Assembly (NCBI RefSeq): GCF_003086895.1 | Contig: NZ_CP026004.1 | Location: forward strand, 3,012,731 to 3,076,730 | DNA length: 64,000 nt | Reading direction: 5' to 3' | Origin: Stenotrophomonas sp. ESTM1D_MKCIP4_1 | Lineage (GTDB): Bacteria > Pseudomonadota > Gammaproteobacteria > Xanthomonadales > Xanthomonadaceae | Shown: piece by piece, positions 1 through 14,157 of the stretch | Layout of the letters: each line of letters begins with the position of its first letter | Numbering within the stretch: the stretch's first letter is position 1 | Position numbers and translations under genes: made by a program | The notes under the pieces: generated by a model | Databases searched by the model: none | Told to the model about the DNA's origin: nothing | The model's input: the letters and a program-made list of their open reading frames with translations, nothing else

Positions 1-537
1 CACCAGTGCACCGATGAGCAGCATCATCGACACGCCGGCCAGATACACGAAGCCCCCCATCCACGGCAGCCAGCTGCGCGGGGCCTCGCGGCAGGCGAGC
101 AGCGGCAGCGACACCAGTGCGTACAGCACCAGGATGTCGCCGGACCACACCAGCAGCGCGTGGCACAGACCGATGAGCGCCAGGCCAAGGCTGCGCCGCA
201 GGTAGAACGGCGCAAATTCGCGGCCGGCCGCCTGCGCGCGTTGCGCCATGACGGCGAAGCCGGCACCGAACAGCAGCGAGAACAGGGTGAAGAACTTGCC
301 CTGTACGAAGATGTAGACAAAGGCATCAGCCGCGTAGTCCAGCCCGTGCCAGCGCGCGTCGATACCGGTGAAGGCCAGGTCCAGCGGTCCGCTGAGGGCC
401 TCGATGTTCATCAGCAGGATGCCCAGCAGGGCCACCCCGCGCAGCACGTCCAGCACCGCGATGCGTTCGCCGGAAGCCACCGGCTGCAGGGAAGGGGAAG
501 CGGTGTTCACGGGGCATCCGGCAGGCAGGTCCGTCAT
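1..537 (-). CDS. DUF418 family membrane protein (N-terminal part)
   Basis: The frame is open from an ATG at 537 to the window edge (179 codons) and has no stop, so the gene is truncated by the window. Near residues 18-45 it reads ERIAVLDVLRGVALLGIL, the N-terminal signature of the DUF418/YeiB-like multi-pass inner-membrane family. Further hydrophobic segments follow. An in-frame GTG at 510 is an alternative start. Family members are predicted membrane proteins, often placed near acyltransferase-like families, with no established reaction. The family call is good; function is unknown. Confidence 0.8.
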   Translation of the reverse strand, partial: MTDLPAGCPVNTASPSLQPVASGERIAVLDVLRGVALLGILLMNIEALSGPLDLAFTGIDARWHGLDYAADAFVYIFVQGKFFTLFSLLFGAGFAVMAQRAQAAGREFAPFYLRRSLGLALIGLCHALLVWSGDILVLYALVSLPLLACREAPRSWLPWMGGFVYLAGVSMMLLIGALV

Positions 538-636
538 TATGCCGCCGGCCCGCGCGCCGTGGACGGTCGCGCCGTGTTCCAGAAACGCAACGACCCGCCG
601 AAGCGGGCCGTCGCTGCCATCACGATCGCGCCGCGA

Positions 637-1119
637 TCAGTGCTGGTGACCACCGTCGCCGTGGACATGGCCGTGGTCGATTTCTTCCTTGCCGGCTTCG
701 CGCACTTCGACGATCTCGACGTCGAAGTGCAGGTCCTTGCCGGCCATCGGGTGGTTCAGATCGACGTCGACCACGCTCATGCCGACCTTCTGCACGGTGA
801 CCGCGCGCGGACCGAAGTTGGTCTGCAGCACCACCTGCTGGCCCGGGACCAGCTTGGCATTGCCGAAATGCTTCTTCGGCACGCGCTGGGACAGACCCTC
901 GCGACGCTCGCCGTAGGCATCGGCCGCCTTGACGTCGACCTCGAAGGTCGCGCCGGCTTCCTTGTCCATCATGGCGTTTTCCAGGCCCGGGATGATGTTG
1001 CCGTGGCCGATCAGGATCGACAGCGGCTCGCCGCGGTCCTTCGACGATTCGATCGGCGCCTGGCCGACCTCGGAAACGGTGTAGTGGAAGCGGACAACGC
1101 GGTCTTTTTCGATCTTCAT
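637..1119 (-). CDS. slyD: FKBP-type peptidyl-prolyl isomerase, SlyD-like
   Basis: This 160-residue protein begins MKIEKDRVVRFHYTVSE. It has the FKBP half-domains split by an inserted flap (residues about 70-125, with YGERREGLSQRVPKKHF), as in SlyD. The family catalyses proline cis-trans isomerisation and acts as a chaperone in the cytoplasm. The C-terminus is His-rich (DHGHVHGDGGHQH), a short version of the metal-binding tail of E. coli SlyD, so nickel or zinc binding is plausible. The frame stays open upstream of 1119, but the family N-terminus fits the ATG at 1119. The lipoprotein gene at 1231 is divergent. Confidence 0.92.
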   Translation of the reverse strand: MKIEKDRVVRFHYTVSEVGQAPIESSKDRGEPLSILIGHGNIIPGLENAMMDKEAGATFEVDVKAADAYGERREGLSQRVPKKHFGNAKLVPGQQVVLQTNFGPRAVTVQKVGMSVVDVDLNHPMAGKDLHFDVEIVEVREAGKEEIDHGHVHGDGGHQH

Positions 1120-1230
1120 GCGCAACTCTGTCTGGATCTGCCGGAGGCAGGCGGGTTGGGGCGGGTTGTCGCCCGGCGGGGACGCCGCCATCATGACGGC
1201 CAATCCAAGGTGGCGCATTATCCGGAGATC

Positions 1231-1770
1231 ATGCACATCACGCCAGTTTTGTCCGGCCTGCGCCGGTCCCTCGCGCCCGCCCTGCTGCTGGCCCTGCCCC
1301 TGCTGCTGGCCGCCTGCGGTGGCGGCAAGGCCGTCCGCCCTGCCCCTGCGCCGCCGTCGGCACACTGGCCCGCCACCACCCCGGACAACCCGGAGGCGGC
1401 CAACTCAGTGCTGATGCGCGCCATCAGCCTGGTCGGCACCCCTTACCGTTACGGCGGCAACACCCCCGATTCGGGCTTCGACTGCAGCGGGCTGGTGACG
1501 TACGTGTACCGCGAAATGGTCGACCTGAAGCTGCCGCGCACCTCGCGCGACCTGGCCGCCGTGCAGGGGCCGAAGATCGACCCGCAGCGCCTGGCCACCG
1601 GCGATCTGGTGTTCTTCGGCAGCCGCGGCAACGTCACCCATGTCGGCATCTACGTGGGTGAGGGCCGCTTCGTGCACGCACCGAGCACGGGTGGCACCGT
1701 TCGCCTGGACTCCCTCAGCGGCGCCTACTGGAAAGACCACTACACAGGAGCGAAACGCGTTCTTCGCTAA
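1231..1770 (+). CDS. NlpC/P60 family lipoprotein (C40 peptidase)
   Basis: This 179-residue protein has a lipobox LLAAC (Cys29), so it should be an envelope lipoprotein. It carries one NlpC/P60 domain (residues about 56-179) with catalytic Cys85 in DCSGLV, His137 in THVGIY and a third polar residue, His149. NlpC/P60 enzymes cleave peptidoglycan stem peptides (D-Glu to DAP bonds), for example E. coli MepS, which is of similar length. GGAG at 1225 precedes the ATG at 1231; a longer open frame upstream lacks signal-peptide character. A paralogue follows at 1902, suggesting tandem duplication. Confidence 0.9.
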   Translation: MHITPVLSGLRRSLAPALLLALPLLLAACGGGKAVRPAPAPPSAHWPATTPDNPEAANSVLMRAISLVGTPYRYGGNTPDSGFDCSGLVTYVYREMVDLKLPRTSRDLAAVQGPKIDPQRLATGDLVFFGSRGNVTHVGIYVGEGRFVHAPSTGGTVRLDSLSGAYWKDHYTGAKRVLR

Positions 1771-1795
1771 AATGAACAGGCGATATGTTCAAAAC

Positions 1796-1811
1796 TGTGA
1801 CGCGCATCACT
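1796..1811. promoter_or_regulatory. Putative Clp/CRP-type operator
   Basis: The AT-rich gap between the two NlpC/P60 genes contains TGTGA-CGCGCA-TCACT, a near-perfect CRP-family palindrome (TGTGA-N6-TCACA, one mismatch). Xanthomonadaceae encode the CRP homologue Clp, which binds this type of site. It lies about 90 bp upstream of the GTG start at 1902, consistent with activation of that gene. Binding is inferred from the motif alone. Confidence 0.5.
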
Positions 1812-1901
1812 ATGTAAATAACGATTTATTAACGGAATTTTTAACTTATTGACGCTTTTACAGGGCATGATGCCCCATCGTTTTTTTTCTGTGACCAACG
1901 C

Positions 1902-2672
1902 GTGACGACTGACGACCTGCAAGGCCAAGGCCAGACCGCCGCTTCTTCACGTAGTGTCCGCCCCGTGCTTCTGGGCCTGGCGCTGTGTCTGACCAGCCTC
2001 CCGGCCTGGTCCCAGAGTGCCCCCGTCAAGACCGATGCGACCCCGGCCCAGGTGGCCGATATCGCCCGGCCGGCCACCAAGGCCGATGCTGCCGCTCCCC
2101 AGCGCAGCCGTGCCGATGCCGCCGCCAGCGCCACCCTGGCCGCCCTGCTGCCGCATCTGGCCGCCAATGACACCATTCCGCTGATGGACCGTTCGGCCAT
2201 GGTGGCCGGCGATCTCAGCCGCCTGCTTGCCAACTACGACACCAGCAGCGCCGCCAACGGCAGCGTCGTGGGCACCGAAGCCGACAACGGCAAGGTGCAG
2301 TCCCTGCTGCGCCGCGCGATGACCCTGCTGGGCACCCCCTACCGTTGGGGCGGCAGCAACCCGGACAGCGGCTTCGATTGCAGCGGCCTGGTCGGTTATG
2401 TGTTCCGCTCGGCCCTGGGCATCGAGTTGCCGCGCGTCTCGCGCGAAATGGCCCATGACAACAATGCCGAACTGATCAACGACCGCGCCGCGCTGGCGGC
2501 AGGCGATCTGGTCTTCTTCGGCCGCAAGGGGCGCGTCGACCACGTCGGCATCTACGTCGGCGAGGGCCGCTTCCTGCATGCCCCCAGCACCGGCAAGGAC
2601 GTCCGCGTCGATACCCTGCTGAGCGGCTACTGGGGCAACAAGTTCATGCAGGCGCGCCGCGTCGAGCTCTGA
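1902..2672 (+). CDS. NlpC/P60 family protein (C40 peptidase), exported
   Basis: This 256-residue paralogue of the upstream lipoprotein has no lipobox. A Sec signal peptide is visible at about residues 18-38 (VRPVLLGLALCLTSLPAWSQS), followed by an Ala-rich linker of about 95 residues and an NlpC/P60 domain from residue 133. Catalytic Cys160 (DCSGLV), His214 (DHVGIY) and His226 are present. It is predicted to cut peptidoglycan stem peptides in the periplasm. The start is the GTG at 1902, because the nearby GTG at 1891 runs into a stop after four codons. An AT-rich region with a CRP-type palindrome precedes it, and a strong terminator follows. Confidence 0.88.
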   Translation: MTTDDLQGQGQTAASSRSVRPVLLGLALCLTSLPAWSQSAPVKTDATPAQVADIARPATKADAAAPQRSRADAAASATLAALLPHLAANDTIPLMDRSAMVAGDLSRLLANYDTSSAANGSVVGTEADNGKVQSLLRRAMTLLGTPYRWGGSNPDSGFDCSGLVGYVFRSALGIELPRVSREMAHDNNAELINDRAALAAGDLVFFGRKGRVDHVGIYVGEGRFLHAPSTGKDVRVDTLLSGYWGNKFMQARRVEL

Positions 2673-2698
2673 CCCGGCCGCACCCGCGCCCACACCGG

Positions 2699-2726
2699 AA
2701 GCCGCTGCCCTGCAGCGGCTTTTTTG
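2699..2726 (+). terminator. Rho-independent terminator
   Basis: A perfect 10-bp stem AAGCCGCTGC / GCAGCGGCTT with a 3-nt loop is followed by a run of six T. It lies 27 bp after the NlpC/P60 stop codon. Confidence 0.9.
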
Positions 2727-2913
2727 TTGCCTTCCCCCCTGCCCTCATGACACGTGGCCGCTGGTCGGCACAGCCTGCGTTGGTCATGTATGTCACGGCG
2801 CGCTGCATGCCGCGACCGGCCGCTGGATGCGGCCATGGCATCCCGGCGTGGGGCGGCACGCGGCGATGCCCGGTCTGCCACCGCCCGCGTTGCCCGGATG
2901 CTTGGGGGAAGGC

Positions 2914-4266
2914 ATGGCGGCAAGCCTGCAGGTTCCATCACGCTGTGTAATCTGGTTCGGCCAGCCCCTGGCGGGCGAGCGCGATGCGCTGGCGGCCGCC
3001 GGCTGGCAGCTGCGCTGTGTCAGCCCATCGCCTGCGATGGCCGTCGGCCTGCGCGGCCGCGACCATCTGGTGGCGGTGCTGGACCTGCGCCACCTCGATG
3101 CGGACGCGCTGCAGCCGATGCTGCCGTGGGTCGAACAGCATCGTCACCTTCCTTGGCTGGCCGTACTGCCGGCCGGCTTGGACGCGCCGCCGCCGAGCTG
3201 GGCTCCCCTGCTCCGCGCCTGCCATGACCAGTTCACCCTGCCCCGCGAGCTGCCGGACCTGCTGACGGCCATGCAGCGCGAATGCGGCGAGGATGACCCG
3301 CCGACGGCAGCGATCCGCGCGGGCGGCGGCCTGCCAGCGCTGATCGGCGACAGTCCGGCCCTGCTGACGGTACGGGCCGCCCTGCACAAGTTCGCTCCGG
3401 TAGAGCTGCCGGTGCTGGTGACCGGCGAAACCGGTACCGGCAAGGAACTGGCTGCGCAGGCCCTGCATGCTTTGTCCGGACGCGCCGGCCGGCCCTTCCT
3501 GGCGGTCAACTGCGGAGCCATTCCGGCCAACCTGGTGCAGTCGGAGCTGTTCGGCCACGAACGCGGCGCCTTCACCGGGGCCGCGCAACGCCGGGTCGGC
3601 CTGTTCGAGACTGCCGATGGCGGCACGGTCTTCCTGGACGAGGTGGGCGATCTGCCCGCCGACGCACAGACCAGCCTGCTGCGGGTGCTGCAGGAAGGCA
3701 CGCTGGAGCGGGTGGGCAGCAACCAGCCACTGCGGGTGGATGTGCGCGTGCTGGCGGCGACCCACGTCGATCTGGAGCAGGCGGTGGCCCAGGGGCGGTT
3801 CCGCCGCGACCTGTATTACCGTCTCAACGTGCTGCGGCTGCCGATGCCGGCGCTGCGCGATCGTGGCAACGACGTGCTGCTGCTGGCCGAACACTTCCTG
3901 CGCAGCTTCCGCAGCCGCCACCCGGGCCGCGCCCGTGGCTTCGACCCCGGCGCGCGCCTGGCCATGCGCCACTTCGACTGGCCCGGCAATGTGCGCGAAC
4001 TGTTGAACCGGGTGCAGCGCGCGGCGATCGTCAGCGAACACGAGCTGATCGCCGCCGCCGATCTGGATCTGGCCGACGCAGAGCACCCGGCCCCACGTGC
4101 GATGCTGCAGGACGCCCGCGGCCAGGTCGAGCGCGATGTGCTGCTGCGGACGCTGAAAATGCATGGCTACAACGTATCGGCCTGCGCGCGGCACATGCAG
4201 GTTTCGCGGGTCACTGTGTACCGGCTGTGCCGGAAGCATCAGCTGGAGCTGCCGCCGGAGCGGTAG
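2914..4266 (+). CDS. Sigma-54-dependent Fis-family regulator, VpsR-like
   Basis: This 450-residue enhancer-binding protein has three parts. The N-terminal domain (1-130) resembles a degenerate receiver, with Asp57 in VAVLDLRH at the usual phospho-acceptor strand, as in VpsR. The AAA+ domain has Walker A GETGTGKE (171-178), the sigma-54 contact loop GAFTGA (218-223) and Walker B GGTVFLDEVG (236-245). A Fis-type helix-turn-helix follows at about 415-443. An intact GAFTGA implies true sigma-54 activation. ATG 2914 is preceded by GGGGGAAGG; an in-frame ATG at 2827 would add 29 Pro/Arg-rich residues. The gene faces the Fap-like operon, and a sigma-54 promoter heads that operon, so it is the likely activator. 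VpsR binds c-di-GMP; whether this protein does is not shown. Confidence 0.88.
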   Translation: MAASLQVPSRCVIWFGQPLAGERDALAAAGWQLRCVSPSPAMAVGLRGRDHLVAVLDLRHLDADALQPMLPWVEQHRHLPWLAVLPAGLDAPPPSWAPLLRACHDQFTLPRELPDLLTAMQRECGEDDPPTAAIRAGGGLPALIGDSPALLTVRAALHKFAPVELPVLVTGETGTGKELAAQALHALSGRAGRPFLAVNCGAIPANLVQSELFGHERGAFTGAAQRRVGLFETADGGTVFLDEVGDLPADAQTSLLRVLQEGTLERVGSNQPLRVDVRVLAATHVDLEQAVAQGRFRRDLYYRLNVLRLPMPALRDRGNDVLLLAEHFLRSFRSRHPGRARGFDPGARLAMRHFDWPGNVRELLNRVQRAAIVSEHELIAAADLDLADAEHPAPRAMLQDARGQVERDVLLRTLKMHGYNVSACARHMQVSRVTVYRLCRKHQLELPPER

Positions 4267-4603
4267 TGCCGGGCGCTGCATGGGAGGCGAAGCCGCCGCA
4301 GTTGACGTTGACTTGGGTCCGCCTTGAAGCGAGCCGAGCACCGCAGGGGAACCAGGGGCGAAGAGGCGCGGGTGTCTGAGCGCAGCGAGTTCCGCGCCGT
4401 CCCCTGGTTCTCCGAGGAGCGCAGGGTACCGGCGCGCGCAGCGCGGCGGCTCGCGGACGGCGGCGTGTTTCTTTGGTTACTTTCTTTGCACGAGCAAAGA
4501 AAGTGACACCCCTCCGCGGTCGCGGGAAACGGCTGCCGGGCCGCGCCCGGTCGGAAGCCAGCCGAGCATGGCTCGGCTCTACTGGGAGCGTGAGCGCCGC
4601 TGC
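4267..4603. other. Intergenic repeat-rich stretch between regulator and fapF
   Basis: No convincing gene is seen. The regulator's TAG stop (4264-4266) lies in a GTAGTGCCGG sequence resembling a degenerate SMAG head. At 4479-4504 there is a perfect 11-bp hairpin (ACTTTCTTTGC, loop ACGA, GCAAAGAAAGT). I recall this TTTCTTTGCACGAGCAAAGAAA type of sequence as a common dispersed intergenic element in Xanthomonadaceae, but cannot check copy number here. A GGGGAACCAGGGG / CCCCTGGTTCTCC pair at about 4347-4414 suggests a larger stem-loop. Confidence 0.5.
4560..4582 (-). repeat. SMAG palindrome (GTAG head)
   Basis: On the minus strand it reads GTAGAGCCGAGCCATGCTCGG plus CT, a palindrome with the GTAG head typical of S. 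maltophilia SMAG/REP elements. Confidence 0.8.
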
Positions 4604-4634
4604 GAAAAAAGAACGGCGGGCGAGGCCCGGCGTT
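4604..4634 (-). terminator. Terminator of the Fap-like operon
   Basis: On the minus strand, 26 bp after the fapF stop, AACGCCGGGC and GCCCGCCGTT form a stem with one C-C mismatch and a CTC loop, followed by a six-T run. This closes the six-gene operon. Confidence 0.75.
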
Positions 4635-4659
4635 GCCGATGCAGGATCACCGCAATCAG

Positions 4660-5955
4660 CTACAACATGTACGGCACCTTGAACGACAGCGTGAAGTCCG
4701 GTGCATCCGGGGTCAGCCCGATGCCGAGCAGTGTCACCATCGTCGCGTGCTGGTTCAGCGCGTAGGTCACGCCCAGGTTGAGCGATGCCGCGTTGGCATC
4801 ACTGCCGATCACCTTCACCCATTGCCCGCCCTGGAACCGAGTCGAGGCACGTGCGCTGATCTTGTCGCTGAAGGAAATGCTCAGGCTGGTGCGCTCGTTG
4901 AAGGCGAAGGCCACGCCCGCGCCGAAGTACACCGAGCCGCCCAGCTTGACGTCACCGGGGTTCATGGTGTCCGGGTTGCTGTCGATATCGTCGAAACCGC
5001 GCGGGAAGGAATGGATGTAGCCGGCGTTGGCAAACAGGATCGCCGGATCGGCGGTCTTCACCATCGAGACGCCGAGGTTGGCCTGCCACACACCATTGCC
5101 GGTGGGCTGTTCGCGCGGCACCGCGAAGCGGATGTAGTCATCGTCATCGCGCTCGATCACCTTCCAGTCCAGGCCATAGGGTGCGCGGCCGGTCGGTGCG
5201 GTGACGCCACCGGTCAGCACCGTTTCCGGGCGCCAGCCGCGCTCGCCGAACAGGCGGTAATTGGCGCTCATGCTGACATCGCCCAGCCCGTTGCCATTGG
5301 TTTCTTCCTGCCCGATGGCCGCCGCAGCACCGCCTGCACCACCCTTCTGGTAGACCGTGCGCCGTGCCAGGTAGGGCACATCCATGTTCAACGTCAGGTT
5401 CGGGCTGACACCCCAGCGCGCGGCCAGATTGTAGGTCAGCGAATCGGACTCTACGTTTTCGATGGCGATGTTGCCCAGGAAGATCGCATCCAGCGCAAGA
5501 AAGCCGTTGAGGGTGAGCTGCTTGCGGTCATAGCGCGCGTAGGTGAGGCTGTTTTCCAGGGTGAACTTCCGCGAGAAAAGTGCTGCCTGCTGCTGCTTCA
5601 CATCATCCACGCTGCGCCGCGCTTCCTGCTTGGCCTGCTGGGCCTCGGCAGCGGTGCTGGCATAGCCCTCGCTGCTGGGCGGCGCAGCGGCGGCGGCCGC
5701 TGGAGCCAGGGGTGCGGCCGGAGCCGTGGCGGCGCCGGCACGTCCGCTCAGGCGTGCCTGCATGGCCTGTACCTGCATGTCCAGCTCGCGCAGGCGGCGC
5801 ACTTCCTGCGCGTAGTTGGCCTTGAGCTGTTCGAGCTGGGTGATCAGTGCCTGTACGTCGGCACCGTCCTTGGCCTCCGCCGCCGGTTGCTGGGCGAAGG
5901 CGTTGGCCGCCAGCGCCGCCAGCGCCAGCGGGGTAAGCCGCAAATAGGTGTGCAT
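4660..5955 (-). CDS. fapF: FapF-like outer-membrane amyloid secretion porin
   Basis: This 431-residue protein has a signal peptide (cleavage near AFA-QQ, residue 21). A coiled-coil follows at about 30-70 (VQALITQLEQLKANYAQEV), then an Ala/Pro linker (72-100), a second helical Gln/Lys segment (about 103-130), and a beta-rich C-terminal region of about 300 residues. This matches Pseudomonas FapF: a periplasmic coiled-coil, a plug helix and a 12-strand outer-membrane barrel that secretes amyloid subunits. It is the last gene of the operon, as in Pseudomonas, 45 bp after fapE. A trimer is expected from the family. The ATG at 5955 is the only start giving a proper signal peptide. Confidence 0.82.
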   Translation of the reverse strand: MHTYLRLTPLALAALAANAFAQQPAAEAKDGADVQALITQLEQLKANYAQEVRRLRELDMQVQAMQARLSGRAGAATAPAAPLAPAAAAAAPPSSEGYASTAAEAQQAKQEARRSVDDVKQQQAALFSRKFTLENSLTYARYDRKQLTLNGFLALDAIFLGNIAIENVESDSLTYNLAARWGVSPNLTLNMDVPYLARRTVYQKGGAGGAAAAIGQEETNGNGLGDVSMSANYRLFGERGWRPETVLTGGVTAPTGRAPYGLDWKVIERDDDDYIRFAVPREQPTGNGVWQANLGVSMVKTADPAILFANAGYIHSFPRGFDDIDSNPDTMNPGDVKLGGSVYFGAGVAFAFNERTSLSISFSDKISARASTRFQGGQWVKVIGSDANAASLNLGVTYALNQHATMVTLLGIGLTPDAPDFTLSFKVPYML

Positions 5956-6000
5956 GTCGTTGCCCTGCGTTGTCCGTCCGTCCCCCTTGACCGGGCCGTG

Positions 6001-6750
6001 TTACTGGCCCGGGCCCATGCCGCGGTTCAGCGCGATCGCCTGGGCCACGTTCTGGCTCAACGGCTGGTTGCTGGCCACGGTGTTGCGTACCAGCTCAAGC
6101 TGCAGCCGGTTGCTTGCCGCCTGGCCATCACCGGACAGGGCAATGCCCTGGCCAACGCTGCCATTGCGGATCCACTGCTGCACCAGGCCTTGGCCATCGA
6201 TCTGCAGCATCAGGCGCGCCTGGTTGCCCTCAAGCACCGCCGTTGCGCTGGCCCCGCCATGCTGCATCTGCGCGATGCGGCTGCCATCGTCGGTCGTGGT
6301 CGGCACCGCGCCGTCACGCACGGTCAGGGTGGTCACGTTGCGTGCGGTATTGCCGTCGCCAGCAACCTGCACGGCCTGCACCAGGCCGGTGGCGTTGCCC
6401 AGGCCGCTGCTGTCGATGCTACGCCCGTCGGTGGTGGGCAACGGCGCATCCGCGTTGGTCACCTGCACGTGTGGCTGGAACGTCAGCCGCGGCGTGCTGC
6501 CCTGGCGGAAGTCCATGCCCAGCGTCAGCGCACCCTGCACGCTGCTGCCATTGGCGCCCTGCCACCGCGAGATCATCGTCACCCCGAACCAGGCCACGTT
6601 GTTGCCGCCCACGGTGTAGCGGCCGCGCATCAGATTCAGTTCGGGATCGGGGATTTCCTTCAGTCCACGCCCCGGCGTGCCCTCGGCCGCCCACGCGGGC
6701 AGCACCGGCAACAGCAGCAGCGTGGCAATCAACAAACGTTGGCACCGCAT
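6001..6750 (-). CDS. fapE: FapE-like minor amyloid component
   Basis: This 249-residue protein has a clear signal peptide (RLLIATLLLLPVLPAWA, cleavage near 22). The N-terminal third contains NLMRGRYTVGGNNVAWFGV, and the middle carries ATGLVQAVQVAGDGNTARN, echoing the amyloid repeat motif of the neighbouring subunits. The assignment to FapE rests on position between the C39 peptidase and the porin, on size, and on export. A strong AAGGAGG precedes the ATG at 6750, 13 bp after fapD. In Pseudomonas, FapE is a minor fibre-associated protein. Confidence 0.65.
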   Translation of the reverse strand: MRCQRLLIATLLLLPVLPAWAAEGTPGRGLKEIPDPELNLMRGRYTVGGNNVAWFGVTMISRWQGANGSSVQGALTLGMDFRQGSTPRLTFQPHVQVTNADAPLPTTDGRSIDSSGLGNATGLVQAVQVAGDGNTARNVTTLTVRDGAVPTTTDDGSRIAQMQHGGASATAVLEGNQARLMLQIDGQGLVQQWIRNGSVGQGIALSGDGQAASNRLQLELVRNTVASNQPLSQNVAQAIALNRGMGPGQ

Positions 6751-6763
6751 GATCGAACCTCCT

Positions 6764-7468
6764 TCAGAACAGGTCGGCATGGCTGAAGCCGAAATCGACC
6801 AGTTCGGCATCGGTGATCGGGCCCTGCCGCGCGTACAACGCACGCGCACTGGGCCGTTCGCTGGGTTGCAGAAGTACGGTATTGCGATCGAAGTCGCTGC
6901 CGATGACGACGAAAACAGCGCGCGACGGCCACGCTTCGTTGAACTCGGCCAATGACAGGCTGCGGTTGCCGAGGATGGGATCAGCCACCTCGACGATGCC
7001 GCCACGAACCTGCTTGAGCACCACGAAATGGCGGAACCCGCGCACGTCCATCAGCACCAGGCCAGGCACCCGCAGCGTGCGCAGCCGGCTTTCGTCGATG
7101 CGGTAGCCACGCCCGCGCATGCCGAGTGATTCGACATAGCGCTTGATGTCCAGCAACGAAAAACCGCGCTCCTTCACCAGCTGCGGATCGGATACGCCCA
7201 TCATTCCTTCGATCACCGTCGCTTCGTTGGTGTCCAGGTGGTAGGCGTAACGCAGGATGGTGGCCAGTGCGGCCGCGCCACAGCTGTAATCGGTGTGTTG
7301 CCGCACCAGGTTGCGGTAGCGCCGCTCCTGCATGCTTTCCACCTTCTGCTGCATCAGCGCGCCATTGGGCAATACCCCGGTGAACGCGACGTCACCTGCC
7401 CATGCGTGGGCGCTGCCCAGCAACAGCAGGCAGGACAGCAGGCGGATCCAGCAGCGGTGTGCGGCCAT
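6764..7468 (-). CDS. fapD: FapD-like C39 family cysteine peptidase
   Basis: This 234-residue protein has a signal peptide (about 1-25, AWA-GD) and a C39 papain-like domain. Gln57 and Cys63 lie in QHTDYSCGAAA, His147 in GFRHFVVL and Asp163 in VADPILG, giving the full Gln/Cys/His/Asp set. Unlike C39 domains of bacteriocin ABC exporters, it has no transporter part. Stand-alone periplasmic C39 proteins of this kind are FapD, which is required for Fap fibre export. The ATG at 7468 follows GGAGGG; in-frame codons to 7570 encode a Pro/Gly-rich stretch without signal features and were excluded. Confidence 0.85.
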   Translation of the reverse strand: MAAHRCWIRLLSCLLLLGSAHAWAGDVAFTGVLPNGALMQQKVESMQERRYRNLVRQHTDYSCGAAALATILRYAYHLDTNEATVIEGMMGVSDPQLVKERGFSLLDIKRYVESLGMRGRGYRIDESRLRTLRVPGLVLMDVRGFRHFVVLKQVRGGIVEVADPILGNRSLSLAEFNEAWPSRAVFVVIGSDFDRNTVLLQPSERPSARALYARQGPITDAELVDFGFSHADLF

Positions 7469-7489
7469 GGTGCCCTCCAGCGGAAGGAA

Positions 7490-7560
7490 GGAGCCCCTGC
7501 CCCAAGGGGGAGGAGGAGCAGGGGCTCCCGGGGGAACCCGGCCATTGGCGGATGGCCGGG
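7490..7560 (-). promoter_or_regulatory. Tandem strong hairpins between fapC and fapD
   Basis: Two perfect inverted repeats lie in the 140-bp gap after the main subunit gene: CCCGGCCAT/ATGGCCGGG (7537-7545 with 7552-7560) and GGAGCCCCTGC/GCAGGGGCTCC (7490-7500 with 7518-7528). Neither is followed by a T-run. They are likely mRNA-stabilising or partly attenuating structures that raise fapABC message over fapDEF. The role is inference. Confidence 0.55.
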
Positions 7561-7608
7561 CTTGTTGCACTCAACGCAGCATCGCTGCGAAAGCGGTCAC
7601 GCCAGGAG

Positions 7609-8991
7609 TTACTCGCCGCCGCCGGTGCCGCCGCCACCGCCGGTGCTCGGCTGTGCCACGGCCAGGGCCAGGCTGTTGGCCTGCAGGTTGCCGGTGCCCG
7701 AAGCGACGTTCACGCCGATGTTGCCCGAGGCGCCCGAGAACGCACTGCCCGACAGCGCCGAGGTGTTGGTCGCATTCACGTTCACCCAGCGGGTGGTCGT
7801 GACGGTACCGCTCAGGCTGGCGTACAGGTCGGCAATGCCCAGCTCGACGAACTGGCTGGTGCCGCTTTCACGCGTATCGAAGCCCAGGCCACCGACGCCC
7901 TGCCGGTACGGGTTCGGGGTGGCGTTCTGGATCTCGTTGTCCAGATCGATGTGCCCAGTGCTGTTGCCATCCGGATGCGGCAGGTCGCCATCCCAAGTGT
8001 CGAGGTAGTAGTTCGCCATCTGGTAGGCATTGCCCCGGCCACTGTAGGTACCGGCGCCATAGGCCAGGGTCAGGCCGCCCACGCCACCGCTCATGCCCAC
8101 TTCCACGGTGTCGGTGTAGGACTGCACGAAGCCGGCATTGGACACCGCGTTGCCGCTGGAGATCTGGTTGGAGCTGATGCTGGACTGGGCAATCGCACTG
8201 GTGGCCACCGAAGCAGCGAGCGCGTTCTTCTGCTCGTTGTTGTTGCCCGAGGCGATGTTCACGCCGATGTTGCCCGACGCGCCACCGAAGGCATTGCCAC
8301 CGAGGCTGGCGGCGTTGGTGACGCCGGAGTTCATGGTGACGTTGCCCATGCCGGCCTGGTTGACGAACACTTCTGCGTCGGCCATGCCGAAGCTGAAGGA
8401 CGCATCAGCGGCGGACAGCGAAGCGGCGTTGTCCTGCGCGTTGTTGTCACCGGCCGCGACGTTGAAGCCAAGGTTGCCGGAGGCACCGGAACCGACCTCG
8501 TCCGCGATGGACGCACTGTTGGTGACCAGGCTGTTGGAGCCTACGTTGTTGCTGACCGACTGGCGGTTGTCGATGACCGCAATGGCGGCCGAATCCAGGT
8601 CGATGTCACCGGTGATGGTCGGATCGCCGGAGAAGTTCACGTCACTGCTCAGGCGCAGATCCTTTTCCAGGTTCACGTCGACGCCGTGGTTGTTCTTTTC
8701 CTTGCGCTCGTCGGCCTGGATGTTGCTGTGCTTCTGTACCTGCTCGTTGACCGTGCGGTTGCGGGTCACGTTGGAGGTATCGGTGTTGCTGCGTACCGTG
8801 GTGTTGGTACGGGTCCAGTTGCGGACCTCGTTGTCGGTGTGGTTGTGGGTGTCGTTGCGGGTCTCGGTCACGACATGGTTGTGGTTGATGTTCGCGCTGG
8901 CGTTCTGGTTGTCCCAGCCGTTGGCCGCAGCAGCGGTCGAGGCAGAAGCAATTGCCATGGCGAGCAGAGACTGTTTGACGGTCGCTTTCAT
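7609..8991 (-). CDS. fapC: FapC-like major functional-amyloid subunit
   Basis: This 460-residue exported protein (signal about 1-23) has an Asn/His/Thr-rich head (about 24-100) and three copies of an amyloid repeat: GASGNLGFNVAAGDNNAQ, GASGNIGVNIASGNNNEQ and GASGNIGVNVASGTGNLQ. Long Ser/Asn/Gly-rich linkers separate them. The motif (G-x-x-G-V/F-N-x-A-x-G-x-x-N-x-Q) is that of Pseudomonas FapC/FapB. The gene is third in the operon, the FapC position, and is the largest repeat protein. The C-terminus is poly-Gly, and no cysteine occurs anywhere, so the C-terminal CxxC reported for Pseudomonas FapC is missing. Confidence 0.78.
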   Translation of the reverse strand: MKATVKQSLLAMAIASASTAAAANGWDNQNASANINHNHVVTETRNDTHNHTDNEVRNWTRTNTTVRSNTDTSNVTRNRTVNEQVQKHSNIQADERKEKNNHGVDVNLEKDLRLSSDVNFSGDPTITGDIDLDSAAIAVIDNRQSVSNNVGSNSLVTNSASIADEVGSGASGNLGFNVAAGDNNAQDNAASLSAADASFSFGMADAEVFVNQAGMGNVTMNSGVTNAASLGGNAFGGASGNIGVNIASGNNNEQKNALAASVATSAIAQSSISSNQISSGNAVSNAGFVQSYTDTVEVGMSGGVGGLTLAYGAGTYSGRGNAYQMANYYLDTWDGDLPHPDGNSTGHIDLDNEIQNATPNPYRQGVGGLGFDTRESGTSQFVELGIADLYASLSGTVTTTRWVNVNATNTSALSGSAFSGASGNIGVNVASGTGNLQANSLALAVAQPSTGGGGGTGGGE

Positions 8992-9036
8992 GGTGCCCTC
9001 TCTCTCATCAGTGATACATCGGGTGGTGGGTGGTAC

Positions 9037-9660
9037 TCACGGGTTGCCCTGGACGACCAGGCCAAGCACGTTGGCCGTGTCGTTGCGGGCTCCCGCGATC
9101 TGATTGAGTTGCAGGACACCGTCGAAGCCCCGCAGTGCCGAGGCGGAAACGCCGACACTGCGGATACCCGCCGCAACACCGTCACCGGTGTCGCCCTGCC
9201 CCCCTGCTGACGCGATGTCCGACGCCGCCAAAGCTGCGTCGTCGGTCTCGCGTATTCCTTGCCTGGCCAGCGTTGCGCTGACGACGTTGAGCGTCGTGTT
9301 GGCAATGCCGCTGGCCTGGTTGATCGATGCGATGCCACTGGCGCCGTTGAGCGCCTGCCCTTCGATATGCGCACTGGCCTGCAGCGGCCCGGACAGCACC
9401 ACGTCGGCATGGCGCTGCTGCCGTGCAGCGATGGCCACGTTGGCCTGGTCGCCGGTTGCCATGCCCTGCAGATTGGCCTGGATGTTCAGGTCGCCGGCGG
9501 CCTGGTTGACGCTGATGGCGCCGCTGGCACCGGCCAGCGCGCGGTCACCGATGCGCGCCACGTCCAGGTAGGACAACATGCCGCTGTAGTCGTCGGCCCA
9601 TGCCAGCGCCGGCACACCGGCCAGCACCAGCAGCAGCGCGCCACGTACCGTGCGCTTCAC
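9037..9660 (-). CDS. fapB: FapB-like minor amyloid subunit
   Basis: This 207-residue protein has a signal peptide (RGALLLVLAGVPALAWA, cleavage near 22). Three repeats follow: ALAGASGAISVNQAAGDLNI, ALNGASGIASINQASGIANT and the more divergent ALRGFDGVLQLNQIAGARND. Each has the Fap G-N-Q-A-G-N pattern. Short length, three repeats and position ahead of fapC fit FapB, the nucleator or minor subunit in Pseudomonas. No cysteines are present. Its ATG overlaps the upstream gene's stop by 4 nt (ATGA), indicating translational coupling. Confidence 0.68.
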   Translation of the reverse strand: MKRTVRGALLLVLAGVPALAWADDYSGMLSYLDVARIGDRALAGASGAISVNQAAGDLNIQANLQGMATGDQANVAIAARQQRHADVVLSGPLQASAHIEGQALNGASGIASINQASGIANTTLNVVSATLARQGIRETDDAALAASDIASAGGQGDTGDGVAAGIRSVGVSASALRGFDGVLQLNQIAGARNDTANVLGLVVQGNP

Positions 9661-10199
9661 TTGCCACCGCCCTGCGGCGCCGCCGCACCGAGCGGGAACT
9701 GCGCCAGTGCACCGCGGACGGTGTCACCGATGCCGCGGGTGGTGTTGCCGACCGCGCCCAGCGGGCCGCTCATCGCACCGCCCAGGCTGTTGCCGCCCAA
9801 TGCACCGTCACTGGAACGGCCCAGGGTGCCACCGAGTGCCTGGTGGGTCACCCGCTCGACGGTGGTGCCGCCCGGCGCGGCCACGTGCCCGGTCTGGCCC
9901 GCCCCGAGCCCGGCATAGTCGTCATCGCTCAGTTCGTCCATGCCAGTGCTGCCGCCACCGCTGCCGAGTGCGGTGGCGATCTCGCGTTGTGGCTTGGGAT
10001 CGGCGATCAACGCCATGCCGGGCGGCGCCATGCGATAGGCCGGACGTGCGGCCACATCCCGCAGCAGGACGATCTCGCCCGGCTGCGGCTTCACGCCCTG
10101 GCGCGCGCCGGAGGCGGTGGCCGCCAGCGGGCAGGCCAGGGCCAGCAGCAGCGCCAGCTGCCGGACCGAGGAACCGAGATGGGTGGTGCTGCTGTCCAT
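9657..10199 (-). CDS. First gene of Fap-like operon, exported, possible FapA
   Basis: This 180-residue protein has a signal peptide (VRQLALLLALACPLAATASGA). An ordered segment follows (EIVLLRDVAARPAYRMAPPG), then a Gly/Ser-rich low-complexity tail (about 80-180). I cannot match it to FapA by sequence; the suggestion rests on being first in a colinear operon and exported. FapA in Pseudomonas is a periplasmic chaperone affecting fibre composition. GGGAG precedes the ATG, and the sigma-54 promoter ends about 34 bp upstream of the start. Confidence 0.6.
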   Translation of the reverse strand: MDSSTTHLGSSVRQLALLLALACPLAATASGARQGVKPQPGEIVLLRDVAARPAYRMAPPGMALIADPKPQREIATALGSGGGSTGMDELSDDDYAGLGAGQTGHVAAPGGTTVERVTHQALGGTLGRSSDGALGGNSLGGAMSGPLGAVGNTTRGIGDTVRGALAQFPLGAAAPQGGGK

Positions 10200-10232
10200 G
10201 CCGCTCTCCCGTTGCGTATGCGCAGGGACAGA

Positions 10233-10247
10233 GCAGTTTCCGTGCCA
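10233..10247 (-). promoter_or_regulatory. Sigma-54 (-24/-12) promoter of Fap-like operon
   Basis: On the minus strand it reads TGGCACGGAAACTGC. The invariant GG and GC are separated by exactly 10 bp, and the match to TGGCACG-N4-TTGC has one mismatch (CTGC). It lies 34 bp upstream of the first operon start codon. Together with the neighbouring GAFTGA-containing activator it strongly suggests RpoN control. Confidence 0.8.
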
Positions 10248-10310
10248 ACTCCGGAAAGGCCTGACAGCAGGCGATCCCGCCCATTGCGGGCGGGTGGATT
10301 GCCAGCACGG

Positions 10311-10416
10311 TGTTACAGAAGCGTTCGGATTCCGTTCACCTTAACGCGCAGGAAACAACGCTGCACAAGGCGCGGACGGGGCTGTATCAGCGGTGTTACA
10401 GGCGCTGATACAGCCC
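10311..10416. promoter_or_regulatory. Candidate upstream activator sites (TGWTACAG array)
   Basis: Upstream of the sigma-54 promoter, TGTTACAG occurs at 10311 and 10394, TGATACAG at 10406, and the inverted form CTGTATCA at 10382. The last two form part of a perfect 14-bp inverted repeat (10379-10392 with 10403-10416, starting GGGCTGTATCAGCG). The two CGGTGTTACAG copies are 83 bp apart. Distance (about 65-170 bp from -24) suits an enhancer for the VpsR-like activator. No T-run follows the inverted repeat, so it is a poor terminator for the symporter gene ending at 10431. Confidence 0.6.
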
Positions 10417-10430
10417 GTTGCAGTGCCGCT

Positions 10431-11765
10431 TCAGCTACGCGGCGGCGTCGGATCGGGGTCATCCAGACCGACATTGGTGGACGGGTTGTCATACACAGAC
10501 TGGTCAAGCAGACCCGTTTCCTTGGCCACCAGTACCGGTACCAGCATCTGTCCGGTCACATTGGTCATCGTGCGCATCATGTCCAGGATGCGGTCAATGG
10601 CATACAGGTAACCAATGGTTTCCAGCGGCAGGTTGGCCGCGCTCAGCACCACGGTAGCCATGATGACCGCCGTGCCCGGCACGCCGGCCGTGCCGAAGCT
10701 GCCCAGCACCGAAGCGATCAGCACCACCACGTACTGCTCGGGCGTCAGCGGCACGCCGCTGTACTGGGCAATGAACACCGCACACAACGCCGGATAGATC
10801 GCACCACAGCCGTCCATCTTGATGCTTGCACCCAGCGGCACCGCGAAGGAGCCGTAGTCCTTGTTCACGCCCAGGTTGTGGGTGATCGAGCGCAGCGCCA
10901 CCGGCATCGCGGCGAAGCTGGACGAACTGACGAAGGCCACCTGCATGCCCGGCGCGGCACCCCGGAAGAACTTCAGCGGATTGAGCCCGTGCGACAGCAG
11001 CAGCGCGCTGTAGACCACCACGATGTGCAGCGCGCAGGCGACGTACAGGGCCAGCACGAAGTGGCCCAGCGGCAGCAGCTTCTCGAAGCCATAGCTGCCG
11101 ACCAGGCCGGCGATCAGGCCGAACGTACCGATCGGGGTGACTTCCAGCACGAAGCGGGTCACCTGGATCATGATGTCGCTCATCTGGCCGACCAGCCTGC
11201 GCGCCTCGGTCACCTTCTCGCCGAGCTTGACGATGGCAAAGCCCACCAGGCCGGCGAAGAAGATCACCGGCAGGATCGAACCACGGCCGGCCGCCAGCAC
11301 GGTCTCGCCAGCGGCATTGACCTTGGTGCCGATGCCCGACAGTGCGTAGAACACGTTGGACGGCACCACATCCAGCAGCACCTGCACCACGCTGGGCACT
11401 TCGCGCGGCACGTAGTTGTTGGCCATCGACAGCTGCAGGCCACCCGCACCCGGCTGCAGCACCGTGCCCACTCCCAGGCCCACGCACACCGCCAGCGCGG
11501 CCGTGATGATGAACCACAGGAACGTGCGGCCACTGAGCGCGGCGACCGATTTCTGGCCGTGCAGCGAAGAGATGGCATTGATGACCGCAAAGAACACCAG
11601 CGGCACGGCGATCATCTTGATGAGGGTGACGTACAGTTCGCCGAGCGGGCCGAACCACGTTTCAGCAGCCGGGCCAAACGCCCAGCCCGCCAGCGCGCCG
11701 AGCACGAAGCCACCGACCACGCGCTGCCAGAATGGAATCCGCAGCCAGGCAGAGACCAGCTTCAT
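10431..11765 (-). CDS. Dicarboxylate/amino acid:cation symporter (DAACS family)
   Basis: This 444-residue multi-pass protein has the family hallmarks: the serine-rich re-entrant loop FVSSSSFAAMP (about 280), the motif IYPALCAVFIAQ, and the substrate/cation-binding helix DRILDMMRTMTNVTG near the C-terminus. Relatives (GltP, DctA, GltT) import glutamate/aspartate or C4-dicarboxylates with Na+ or H+. The exact substrate cannot be read from the sequence. The ATG at 11765 gives the standard N-terminus; an upstream extension is not hydrophobic. It is divergent from the alkaline phosphatase gene. Confidence 0.88.
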   Translation of the reverse strand: MKLVSAWLRIPFWQRVVGGFVLGALAGWAFGPAAETWFGPLGELYVTLIKMIAVPLVFFAVINAISSLHGQKSVAALSGRTFLWFIITAALAVCVGLGVGTVLQPGAGGLQLSMANNYVPREVPSVVQVLLDVVPSNVFYALSGIGTKVNAAGETVLAAGRGSILPVIFFAGLVGFAIVKLGEKVTEARRLVGQMSDIMIQVTRFVLEVTPIGTFGLIAGLVGSYGFEKLLPLGHFVLALYVACALHIVVVYSALLLSHGLNPLKFFRGAAPGMQVAFVSSSSFAAMPVALRSITHNLGVNKDYGSFAVPLGASIKMDGCGAIYPALCAVFIAQYSGVPLTPEQYVVVLIASVLGSFGTAGVPGTAVIMATVVLSAANLPLETIGYLYAIDRILDMMRTMTNVTGQMLVPVLVAKETGLLDQSVYDNPSTNVGLDDPDPTPPRS

Positions 11766-11917
11766 AGGCAATCCAAGGGGAGGAAAGGATGGATGCACGA
11801 TAGCCCATGGGCGCCCTGCGAACGACCGCCCCACCGGCAAATCAGTGTGTCATCGGCGTGCCTTGCTGCGTTGGGCATAATGAATGCCCCGTTACAGTTT
11901 GTGAGATCCCAGCGTCC

Positions 11918-13624
11918 ATGCGTCGTTCCGTCTCCCTGTTGGCCGCCTGCGCCACCACGCTTCTGCTCGGCGCCTGCGCCAGCACCTCCCCCGCCTCCGC
12001 CCCGGCCGGCCTGAAGGTCGCCGTTGATCCCGTGGCCCATCCGGCCGGCGAGACCTCGCAGTGGTGGTACCGCAGCGGTGCAGCCCAGGCGGCCGCCAAT
12101 GGCGCGATGTCCGGCAAGGCGAAGAATGTCATCCTGTTCCTGGGCGACGGCATGAGCCTGACCACGGTGGCCGCCTCGCGCATCTACGAAGGCCAGCAGA
12201 AGGGCGGATCGGGCGAAGAGAACCTGCTGTCCTGGGAGCGCTTCCCGGCCACGGCGTTCAGCAAGACCTACAACACCGATTCGCAGACGCCGGATTCGGC
12301 GGGCACGATGACCGCCATCACCACCGGCGTGAAAACCCACATGGGCGCGATCGGTGTCAGCGCCGGCAACCGCAGCGATTGCGCCGACAGCCTGAACAAG
12401 GGACTGCTGACCTGGCTGCAGCTGGCCGACAGCGCCGGCCTGGCCACCGGCATCGTCTCCACCGCGCGCCTGACCCATGCCACCCCGGCGGCCACCTACG
12501 CGCACTCGCCCGAGCGCAACTGGGAGAACGACACCGACCTGACCGACGCGGCCAAGGCTGCCGGCTGCAAGGACATCGCCCAGCAGCTGCTGTCGACCTC
12601 GCGCTATGGCCGTGGCCCGCTGGTTGCCCTTGGCGGCGGTCGCGGCGAGTTCACCACCGTGGAAGAGCGCGACCCCGAGTACGACGACAAGGTTGGCCAG
12701 CGCCTGGATGGGCGCAGCCTGGTGCAGGAATGGCAGCAGGCACATCCGCAGGGTGCCTACGTCTGGAACAGCAAGCAGCTTGCGGCCGCAGCCACCGCAC
12801 CGGCGATCCTCGGCCTGTTCGAGCCCGACCACATGCGCTACGAATACGAGCGCCCGCAGGATCCGGCCGGCGAGCCGAGCCTGGCCGAGCTGACCGCTGC
12901 GGCCATCAAGAACCTCTCGCAGCACCAGGAAGGCTACGTGCTGATGATTGAAGGCGCGCGCATCGACCACGCCAACCACAGCGGCAACGCCTACCGTGCG
13001 CTGACCGAAACGGTGGCGCTGTCCGACGCGGTGCGCGTGGCCAACGAACTGACCTCGGCCGATGACACCCTGATCATCGTCACGGCCGACCATTCGCACA
13101 CGCTCAACTTCGTCGGCTACCCGGCACGCGGCAACCCGATCCTGGGCAAGGTGAAGGACAAGGGCGGCGAAGACGGCGCCGGCAAGCTGGACGATGCACT
13201 GGACGGCAACGGTCAGCCGTACACCACGCTGAGCTATGCCAACGGCCCCGGCTACACCGGTGCGACGAACCAGCAGCCGGCCGGTGCCAAGCGTTACCCG
13301 CACAACCCGAGCAGCTTCGAGCCGGCCACTGGCCGCCCGGACCTGCATGCCGTGGACACCCAGCACCCGGACTACATGCAGGAAGCACTGGTGCCGATGA
13401 AGTCCGAATCGCACGGCGGTGAAGACGTGGGTATCTGGGCACGTGGCCCGGGCAGCAAGGCCATCCGCGGCACCCTGGAACAGAACGCGATCTACCACAT
13501 GATCGTGCAGGCCACCCCGGCCCTGCGCGAGCGCCTTTGCCAGGCCGGCACCTGCGACGCGCAGGGCGTGCCGGTGCAGCTGCCTGCACCGACCAAGTTC
13601 GAGCGCAAGGCCGAGGCGCAGTGA
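11918..13624 (+). CDS. Alkaline phosphatase, lipoprotein
   Basis: This 568-residue PhoA-superfamily enzyme has an N-terminal lipobox (LLGAC, Cys20), so it is probably anchored in the envelope. Asp77 in LFLGDGMS is the metal ligand. The phosphorylated serine is Ser127 in TPDSAGTMTA. IEGARIDHANH, TADHSHT and SHGGEDVGIWA supply the remaining zinc ligands. It hydrolyses phosphomonoesters in the periplasm. It is longer than E. coli PhoA (about 470), with an insertion between the last His motifs. The next gene overlaps its stop by 4 nt. No convincing Pho box is seen upstream. Confidence 0.9.
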   Translation: MRRSVSLLAACATTLLLGACASTSPASAPAGLKVAVDPVAHPAGETSQWWYRSGAAQAAANGAMSGKAKNVILFLGDGMSLTTVAASRIYEGQQKGGSGEENLLSWERFPATAFSKTYNTDSQTPDSAGTMTAITTGVKTHMGAIGVSAGNRSDCADSLNKGLLTWLQLADSAGLATGIVSTARLTHATPAATYAHSPERNWENDTDLTDAAKAAGCKDIAQQLLSTSRYGRGPLVALGGGRGEFTTVEERDPEYDDKVGQRLDGRSLVQEWQQAHPQGAYVWNSKQLAAAATAPAILGLFEPDHMRYEYERPQDPAGEPSLAELTAAAIKNLSQHQEGYVLMIEGARIDHANHSGNAYRALTETVALSDAVRVANELTSADDTLIIVTADHSHTLNFVGYPARGNPILGKVKDKGGEDGAGKLDDALDGNGQPYTTLSYANGPGYTGATNQQPAGAKRYPHNPSSFEPATGRPDLHAVDTQHPDYMQEALVPMKSESHGGEDVGIWARGPGSKAIRGTLEQNAIYHMIVQATPALRERLCQAGTCDAQGVPVQLPAPTKFERKAEAQ

Positions 13625-14157
13625 CGGGTCTGCCGGACCTCAGCGGCGGCCGCCTCGTGCGGTCGCTGGTGCTGTGCAGCCTGCTCGCCAGCAGCGCTGT
13701 ACTGGCACAGGCACCCGTGTGCAGGCAGCTGACTGAAGAGGATGGCCTGCGGGCCCTGCCCGGCTGCGAAGTGGACGGGCAGCAGGTGAAGATCAGCGCC
13801 GAAGCACTGAAGACGCTGACGTACGACGAGGATGGACTGGCGGTGGTGCATGCCGGCGACGGCTTCCATTACGTGGATCGCACCGGCCGCAGCCTGCCGG
13901 TGCTGACCTGGGACAACGGTGCGGAATCGCCGCAGGAAGGCCTGTTGCGCGGGCGCGTGGGTGACCGTGTTGGTTACTTCGATCTGCAGTTCCGGCAGGT
14001 GATTCCCGCGCTGTTTGATTTCGCGTGGCCGTTCGAGGACGGCGTAGCGGAGGTCTGCAACGGGTGCCGGCGTGGCACGCCCGATGGCGATGGGCATACG
14101 CCGATGGAAGGCGGCGAGTGGTTCCGCATCGACCGCTCGGGGCGCCGGGTCAAATAG
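13621..14157 (+). CDS. Exported WG repeat-containing protein
   Basis: This 178-residue protein starts at a GTG overlapping the phosphatase stop (GTGA), so translation is probably coupled. A signal peptide is visible (VRSLVLCSLLASSAVLAQA). The mature part contains WG-type beta units, for example VGYFDLQFRQVIPALFDFAW and DGFHYVDRTGRSL, which commonly form interaction surfaces. There are two cysteine pairs. No enzymatic motif is visible; a partner role for the phosphatase is inferred only from coupling. Confidence 0.7.
   Translation: MTGLPDLSGGRLVRSLVLCSLLASSAVLAQAPVCRQLTEEDGLRALPGCEVDGQQVKISAEALKTLTYDEDGLAVVHAGDGFHYVDRTGRSLPVLTWDNGAESPQEGLLRGRVGDRVGYFDLQFRQVIPALFDFAWPFEDGVAEVCNGCRRGTPDGDGHTPMEGGEWFRIDRSGRRVK

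Follow-up and report, generated by a model that had tools for sequence, protein, structure and literature searches.

We analyzed a 64,000-nucleotide stretch (the window) of Stenotrophomonas sp. ESTM1D_MKCIP4_1 (NZ_CP026004.1, positions 3,012,731 to 3,076,730), whose genome is a single contig of 4.48 Mb. Six minus-strand genes and an adjacent activator gene in it very probably represent an operon for the export of Fap functional amyloid that is controlled by its own local BrfA-type switch. The gene order, the -24/-12 element before fapA and the convergent BrfA-type activator are the part of this reading that is taken from the DNA itself; the same BrfA circuit is proposed here because of the precedent in Pseudomonas. 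In P. fluorescens PF07, brfA lies downstream of fapF and its product activates fap through RpoN, as stated in the available text of PMC9207406. BrfA senses cyclic diguanylate (c-di-GMP) and drives fapA directly, and BrfA-type factors are described as widespread across Pseudomonas (PMC13101488, available part). Fap of Pseudomonas is a surface amyloid that strengthens biofilms (PMC6173800, available part).

Judged by its sequence matches, the minus strand from 4660 to 10199 is a complete fapABCDEF operon (Table 1). The six genes match the NCBIfam Fap models on a single strand in the order A-B-C-D-E-F, as an original prediction made from the letters alone had proposed, and the 5' end of fapB overlaps the 3' end of fapA by 4 bases. 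Residues 111-430 of FapF match the solved Pseudomonas FapF structure 5o65. FapD, the sole PF03412 match in the genome, carries the C39 peptidase motifs Q...CG and H...DP, which bears out the catalytic set that had been expected, and the two anticipated repeat subunits are recognizable from three repeat motifs in FapB and three clear and one weak in FapC. The start of fapE was set at the ATG ahead of a signal-like peptide (the open frame extends to 7005), and the start codon of fapD was inferred within an open frame extending to 7570.

Table 1. Features of the window discussed in the text (positions counted from the first base of the window).
Feature	Position	Strand	Description
BrfA-type sigma-54 enhancer-binding protein	2914..4266	+	450 aa; divergent receiver-like N-domain, AAA+ with GAFTGA, Fis-type helix-turn-helix
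Intergenic region	4267..4659	.	between convergent regulator and fapF; contains an inverted repeat
Inverted repeat TTTCTTTGCACGAGCAAAGAAAG	4481-4503		between regulator and fapF
fapF	4660..5955	-	putative outer-membrane amyloid exporter, 431 aa; NCBIfam NF058560 2.5e-112; PDB 5o65 5.5e-79
fapE	6001..6750	-	249 aa; NCBIfam NF058559 5.6e-25, match begins at frame residue 86
fapD	6764..7468	-	C39 peptidase, 234 aa; NF058616 1.2e-76; PF03412 6.9e-19
fapC	7609..8991	-	putative major amyloid subunit, 460 aa; NF058558 3.5e-48; His/Asn-rich N-terminal region; without C-terminal CxxC
fapB	9037..9660	-	putative minor subunit, three repeats, GTG start; NF058557 1.4e-24
fapA	9657..10199	-	periplasmic chaperone homologue, 180 aa; NF058617 2e-8
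Predicted sigma-54 (-24/-12) promoter of fapA TGGCACGGAAACTGC	10233..10247	-	like element in 78/78 related loci
Predicted activator site TGTAACA	10311..10317	-	about 70 bases upstream of -24 box
Predicted activator-site cluster 2	10383..10412	-	TGATACA 10383-10389, TGTAACA 10394-10400, TGTATCA 10406-10412

The profile search by which the original prediction was to be checked gave clear matches for FapC, FapD and FapF, and all six proteins score below the NCBIfam equivalog cut-offs (FapF 375.8 vs 700 bits), which weighs against a plain Fap assignment. The cut-off of FapF, the only one of the six checked in other genomes, looks tuned to Pseudomonas, because 29 of 119 Pseudomonadaceae genomes reach it, compared with 0 of 91 in the window's genus and 0 of 369 across the class. 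FapF is present in 83 of the 91 searched genomes of this genus, so that findings in a single environmental strain would be informative for the genus as a whole. A Stenotrophomonas-like host had also been predicted, and the closest named FapF among the matches listed, from which the window genome itself was possibly left out, is that of Stenotrophomonas cyclobalanopsidis (97% identity).

For comparison, 80 related loci were collected as the best 80 of 101 found via short-peptide matches to the window FapF; they are thus close relatives only, by title nearly all Lysobacteraceae. All six fap genes occur in 78 of them, and the remaining two loci start within the operon. A second set consisted of 20 Pseudomonadaceae loci, from 20 of the 32 genomes with a strong FapF match in the sample of 119.

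The predicted fapA promoter, a TGGCACG-N4-CTGC element, ends 33 bases 5' of the fapA start. When the best GG-N10-GC element no more than 260 bases upstream of the fapA match was taken, at least 9 of 11 consensus positions were found in 78/78 loci (10/11 in 72, 9/11 in 5 and 11/11 in 1), and the observed score was equalled or exceeded by just 0 to 4 of every 100 single-base shuffles of a region. At one locus (L043), the top score fell on a look-alike inside the fapA frame, and a true-looking element is present in its upstream region. Since one-mismatch -24/-12 matches within the window number 8 against 10 expected and are not significant alone, the case for the element rests on its position and conservation. 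In PF07, the -24/-12 promoter of fapA was mapped by rapid amplification of 5' cDNA ends, and fap expression was lower in rpoN and brfA mutants, according to the available text of PMC9207406. The same text reports that fapF was not upregulated alongside fapA-E; therefore, it is not certain that all six genes share one transcript, a point against the simplest form of the circuit.

Upstream of this promoter lies a set of predicted sites that this study adds. Sites were counted in 79 regions (the 78 loci and the window), each covering about 350 bases 5' of the -24 box, and any of TGTWACA, TGTATCA and TGATACA was taken as a strict site. TGTAACA occurs on either strand in 66/79 regions; among 420 composition-matched 7-mers, the runner-up was TGATACA (35 regions), followed by two with 10. 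At least one strict site was found in 71/79 regions, compared with a mean of 2.0 after shuffling that preserves single-base content only, and a near and a far cluster were both occupied in 44/79 compared with 0.0. The sites lie 69-72 (47 sites), 80-83 (7), 151-156 (50), 160-167 (28) and 175-180 bases (17) from the -24 box, namely in steps of about 11 bases and mostly at about 70, 153 and 164. Outside the fapA upstream regions, TGTAACA is rare; this rarity may partly reflect codon bias, and we therefore relied on the composition-matched and shuffled controls.

In the whole 4.48 Mb genome, the combined pattern TGTWACA-N50-80-TGGCAYG-N5-TGC has one match, at fapA. It is found in 60/91 genomes of the genus, compared with 2/91 for a backwards control pattern, and all 8 genomes without FapF also lack it. 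A second match occurs in 21/91 genomes, and in the three of these that were opened it lies upstream of one same gene pair; the one copy scanned encodes proteins of the phosphoenolpyruvate-mutase/isocitrate-lyase type and the citrate-synthase type. We take this pair to be prpBC under PrpR, and the second match probably belongs to another activator. A related signal appeared in the Pseudomonadaceae, in which TGTATCA/TGATACA was the top 7-mer upstream of fapA (17/20 regions vs 0.1 expected) and, in 15/20 regions, the best promoter-like element has a looser TGTNNCA-type site at a distance of 69-70 or 80-82 bases. Several observations count against these sites: 8/79 upstream regions have no strict site, the exact site-plus-promoter pattern is missing from 23/83 FapF-bearing genomes of the genus, TGTWACA itself occurs in only 3/20 Pseudomonadaceae regions, and the related loci share descent, so that neither site nor linkage counts are independent events. 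On balance, the TGTA(A/T)CA set probably comprises the docking sites through which the regulator turns on fap. With such a predicted enhancer code, the regulation can be tested directly, and BrfA-type control could be recognized outside Pseudomonas by a sequence signature.

Concerning the regulator, the original prediction of a dedicated sigma-54 activator is borne out by an intact sigma-54 AAA+ domain (6.7e-69), a kept GAFTGA loop and a Fis-type helix-turn-helix. Its further naming as VpsR-type has been replaced. The VpsR domain PF20161 reaches 18.6 bits in the regulator, under the Pfam cut-off of 23.7, which itself speaks against a tie to that family; in six selected homologues, it scored 24.0-41.4 bits in five, which had been chosen because they were pre-labelled with the VpsR domain, and 14.2 bits in one. 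The predicted structure (mean predicted local distance difference test score 75.2) has an N-domain of alternating strands and helices, like a receiver; it does not single out VpsR, because NtrC1, NtrX, FleQ and LuxO rank before VpsR (rank 14) among its fold matches. The regulator resembles VpsR of Vibrio cholerae in its receiver-like N-domain and its link to biofilms, and differs in keeping the GAFTGA loop and lying by a -24/-12 element, whereas VpsR acts with sigma-70 in vitro (PMC9303241, available part). We thus rejected VpsR as a family name on the sub-threshold domain and the intact GAFTGA.

The regulator is better named BrfA-type, because it has a BrfA-like position, keeps GAFTGA and, among the 7 strong sigma-54 activators of its own genome (4 further weak AAA matches were ignored), is the best match for the fap-linked activator in 20/20 Pseudomonadaceae loci. 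With BrfA of PF07 it also shares the sigma-54 activator architecture and an RpoN-type fapA promoter. Another 20 loci were taken from other families, and 13 of them yielded an activator frame for a tree, including two wrongly picked long rows, L165 and L174; after these two were dropped, the window regulator was again the best match in 11/11. In the tree, which contains both rows, 5 of the 6 other own-genome activators fall on one side of a branch (98/98). The Pseudomonadaceae clade joins the other own-genome activators at 90/86, which is under the starred level; the tree therefore does not support orthology with those of the Pseudomonadaceae.

The signal to which the regulator responds is the weakest part of the proposed circuit; c-di-GMP control of this fap operon is suggested by homology. 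The contact residues of FleQ for c-di-GMP are R185, N186 and LFRS (PMC9303241, available part). An alignment places Q, A and LPAL at these positions in the regulator and only ExxxR is kept, which argues against c-di-GMP input, and a FleQ-like pocket was discarded on this ground. Meanwhile, Asp57 (D57) is invariant in 33/33 aligned homologues (rows hand-chosen from 120 listed matches) and aligns with residue 59 of the VpsR chain in a weak match (E-value 0.15). The motif position holds 15 Arg, 2 His and 1 Gln in the 20 Pseudomonadaceae proteins, of which 2 are without a visible motif and PF07 BrfA itself is not one. These features would fit a Fap operon whose activator answers to a phosphorylated receiver-like Asp, or to some other ligand, rather than to c-di-GMP. 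We consider this alternative possible and the less likely one, as BrfA of PF07 senses c-di-GMP (PMC13101488) and VpsR is reported to bind it; no kinase gene was noticed among the open frames of window positions 1-14000, where no search was aimed at kinases.

Under the BrfA-type circuit, the activator would sense biofilm conditions through c-di-GMP, and perhaps through phosphorylation too, a step drawn mostly from Pseudomonas. It would bind TGTA(A/T)CA sites in both clusters 5' of fapA, loop to the -24/-12 promoter and open it by ATP hydrolysis; the genome encodes two sigma-54 factors (G000:C1:1058740-1059210 and 2118569-2119030). FapA and FapD would then escort and process the subunits in the periplasm, the FapF porin would export FapB, FapC and FapE, and FapB would seed FapC fibres, resulting in a stiffer biofilm. 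In Pseudomonas, FapB, FapC and FapE exit via FapF, and secretion of FapC requires the catalytic Cys of FapD (PMC6173800, available part).

The regulator was found next to fap in 79/80 related loci, either convergent after fapF (60) or divergent upstream of fapA (19), and at the single locus without it the contig ends 349 bases past fapF. In the Pseudomonadaceae, an opposite-strand activator follows fapF within 1.5 kb in 20/20 loci. Convergence was rejected as a universal order, since in other gammaproteobacteria the activator often lies upstream on the same strand (L158-L160, L162, L164, L167, L168); the linkage is therefore wider than the convergent order. In the window, the ends of the regulator and fapF are 393 bases apart, so the earlier statement that the regulator faces the operon is correct for tail-to-tail convergence with fapF and incorrect if read as divergence from fapA. 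The inverted repeat between them may act as a terminator or a repeat element.

This linkage bears on another possibility, namely that the activator is a bystander with its main target elsewhere and that another RpoN activator switches fap. Convergent placement alone does not prove control, and six further strong sigma-54 activators are encoded in the genome. We nevertheless judge the bystander role quite improbable, given that the adjacency extends to blocks at other places in which the regulator is divergent from fapA, that the genome has the exact site-plus-promoter pattern at fapA only and that brfA deletion lowers fap expression in PF07 (PMC9207406).

Relocation of the block is suggested by the divergent loci (L005-L020, L035, L043, L068), which are titled S. 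maltophilia (11), S. geniculata, S. sepilia, S. pavanii, [Pseudomonas] hibiscicola and Stenotrophomonas sp. RAC2 (1 each) and uncultured Stenotrophomonas (3); two loci titled S. maltophilia (L025, L036) are nonetheless convergent. The window fap genes are flanked by a dicarboxylate symporter gene and an NlpC/P60 gene. In 3/3 S. maltophilia genomes opened, these two genes are neighbours without intervening fap, at a distance of about 220-320 bases, and in S. maltophilia SJTL3 about 0.9 Mb separates the fap block from this site. Either order could be older; a move in the S. maltophilia lineage is likelier because 60/80 loci of several genera share the convergent order with the Pseudomonadaceae. 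The regulator and operon remain together in either location. Beside the regulator, the window has two tandem NlpC/P60 genes (1231-1770 and 1902-2672), and a similar tandem stands at the fap-empty site in the three S. maltophilia genomes.

The operon and its activator are not new in kind, and the locus is an ordinary member of a known system. The novelty implied by the original prediction was rejected, as Fap operons of Stenotrophomonas, S. maltophilia among them, and of Rhodanobacter were reported in 2013 (Dueholm, PMC3792158, available part), and BrfA is known in PF07 (PMC9207406, PMC13101488). The window operon adds another member to those 2013 operons from the same genus or order; the available text of that report does not contain the word "sigma" and describes no regulator. 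By title and the start of the abstract, none of the papers listed dealt with this regulator or its sites in Xanthomonadales, in a literature whose subscription papers were mostly out of reach. A set of evenly spaced TGTA(A/T)CA sites like the one predicted here was not found in print; published BrfA sites (Guo 2024, Microbiol Res) may already match sites of this type. In the available part of PMC11985002, which deals with mixed biofilms that include S. rhizophila, Fap appears in the reference list only. Fap carriers are reported to include opportunistic pathogens and root bacteria. The region first singled out, 2914 to 10416, begins at the ATG that gives the 450-residue regulator and ends within the fapA upstream region.

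Compared with Pseudomonas Fap, the window operon has the same six genes in the same order, the C39 motifs, the 5o65 match, the FapB and FapC repeats, a sigma-54 promoter element and an opposite-strand activator after fapF, and differs in scoring under the NCBIfam cut-offs. A C-terminal CxC/CxxC of FapC was found in 0/78 related loci and not in the window, compared with 15/19 Pseudomonadaceae proteins. A 2018 review calls this CxxC conserved and suggests a role in polymerisation, and in its available part does not give it as a requirement (PMC6173800). The missing FapC CxxC, together with a receiver-like Asp in place of the Arg, His or Gln present in 18/20 Pseudomonadaceae proteins, could change redox control and signal input. 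We tentatively raise the possibility, speculative at present, that Lysobacteraceae Fap is a distinct variant with a FapC free of the C-terminal disulfide motif, a BrfA-type activator taking both phosphoryl and c-di-GMP input, and an enhancer code that spans two orders, being in outline the same in Pseudomonas (TGTA(A/T)CA-type sites at about 70/81 and 153/164/175 bases from the -24 box, with 11-base steps). If this were true, the control of biofilm amyloid would be readable from DNA in both groups. The window FapC has a long N-terminal stretch in which His, Asn and Thr are abundant and which may bind metal; one Pseudomonadaceae FapC (L144) has a short His-rich stretch too.

That the genes instead export a non-amyloid filament is suggested by the name "putative pilus system" of the Acinetobacter Fil genes, which share FapD- and FapF-like parts, and is favored by weak matches of FapD and FapF to the FilB and FilC models. 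This reading is hardly credible, since the Fap models score far better (peptidase 256.9 vs 120.3 bits; porin 375.8 vs 78.9 bits), and since the FapB and FapC repeats are present.

Apart from the Fap operon itself, six loci of other gammaproteobacterial families (L170, L171, L172, L174, L175 and L176) have a FapF-like porin (24-29% identity), a C39 peptidase and a nearby sigma-54 activator, with no FapB or FapC match; the substrates that these systems export may be different ones. In further phyla, homologues of fapD and fapF have already been reported to be co-located (PMC6173800, available part). Finally, one related locus (L031) is a Stenotrophomonas-type fap locus on a contig titled Bacillus subtilis strain SK7B5, which most likely represents contamination.

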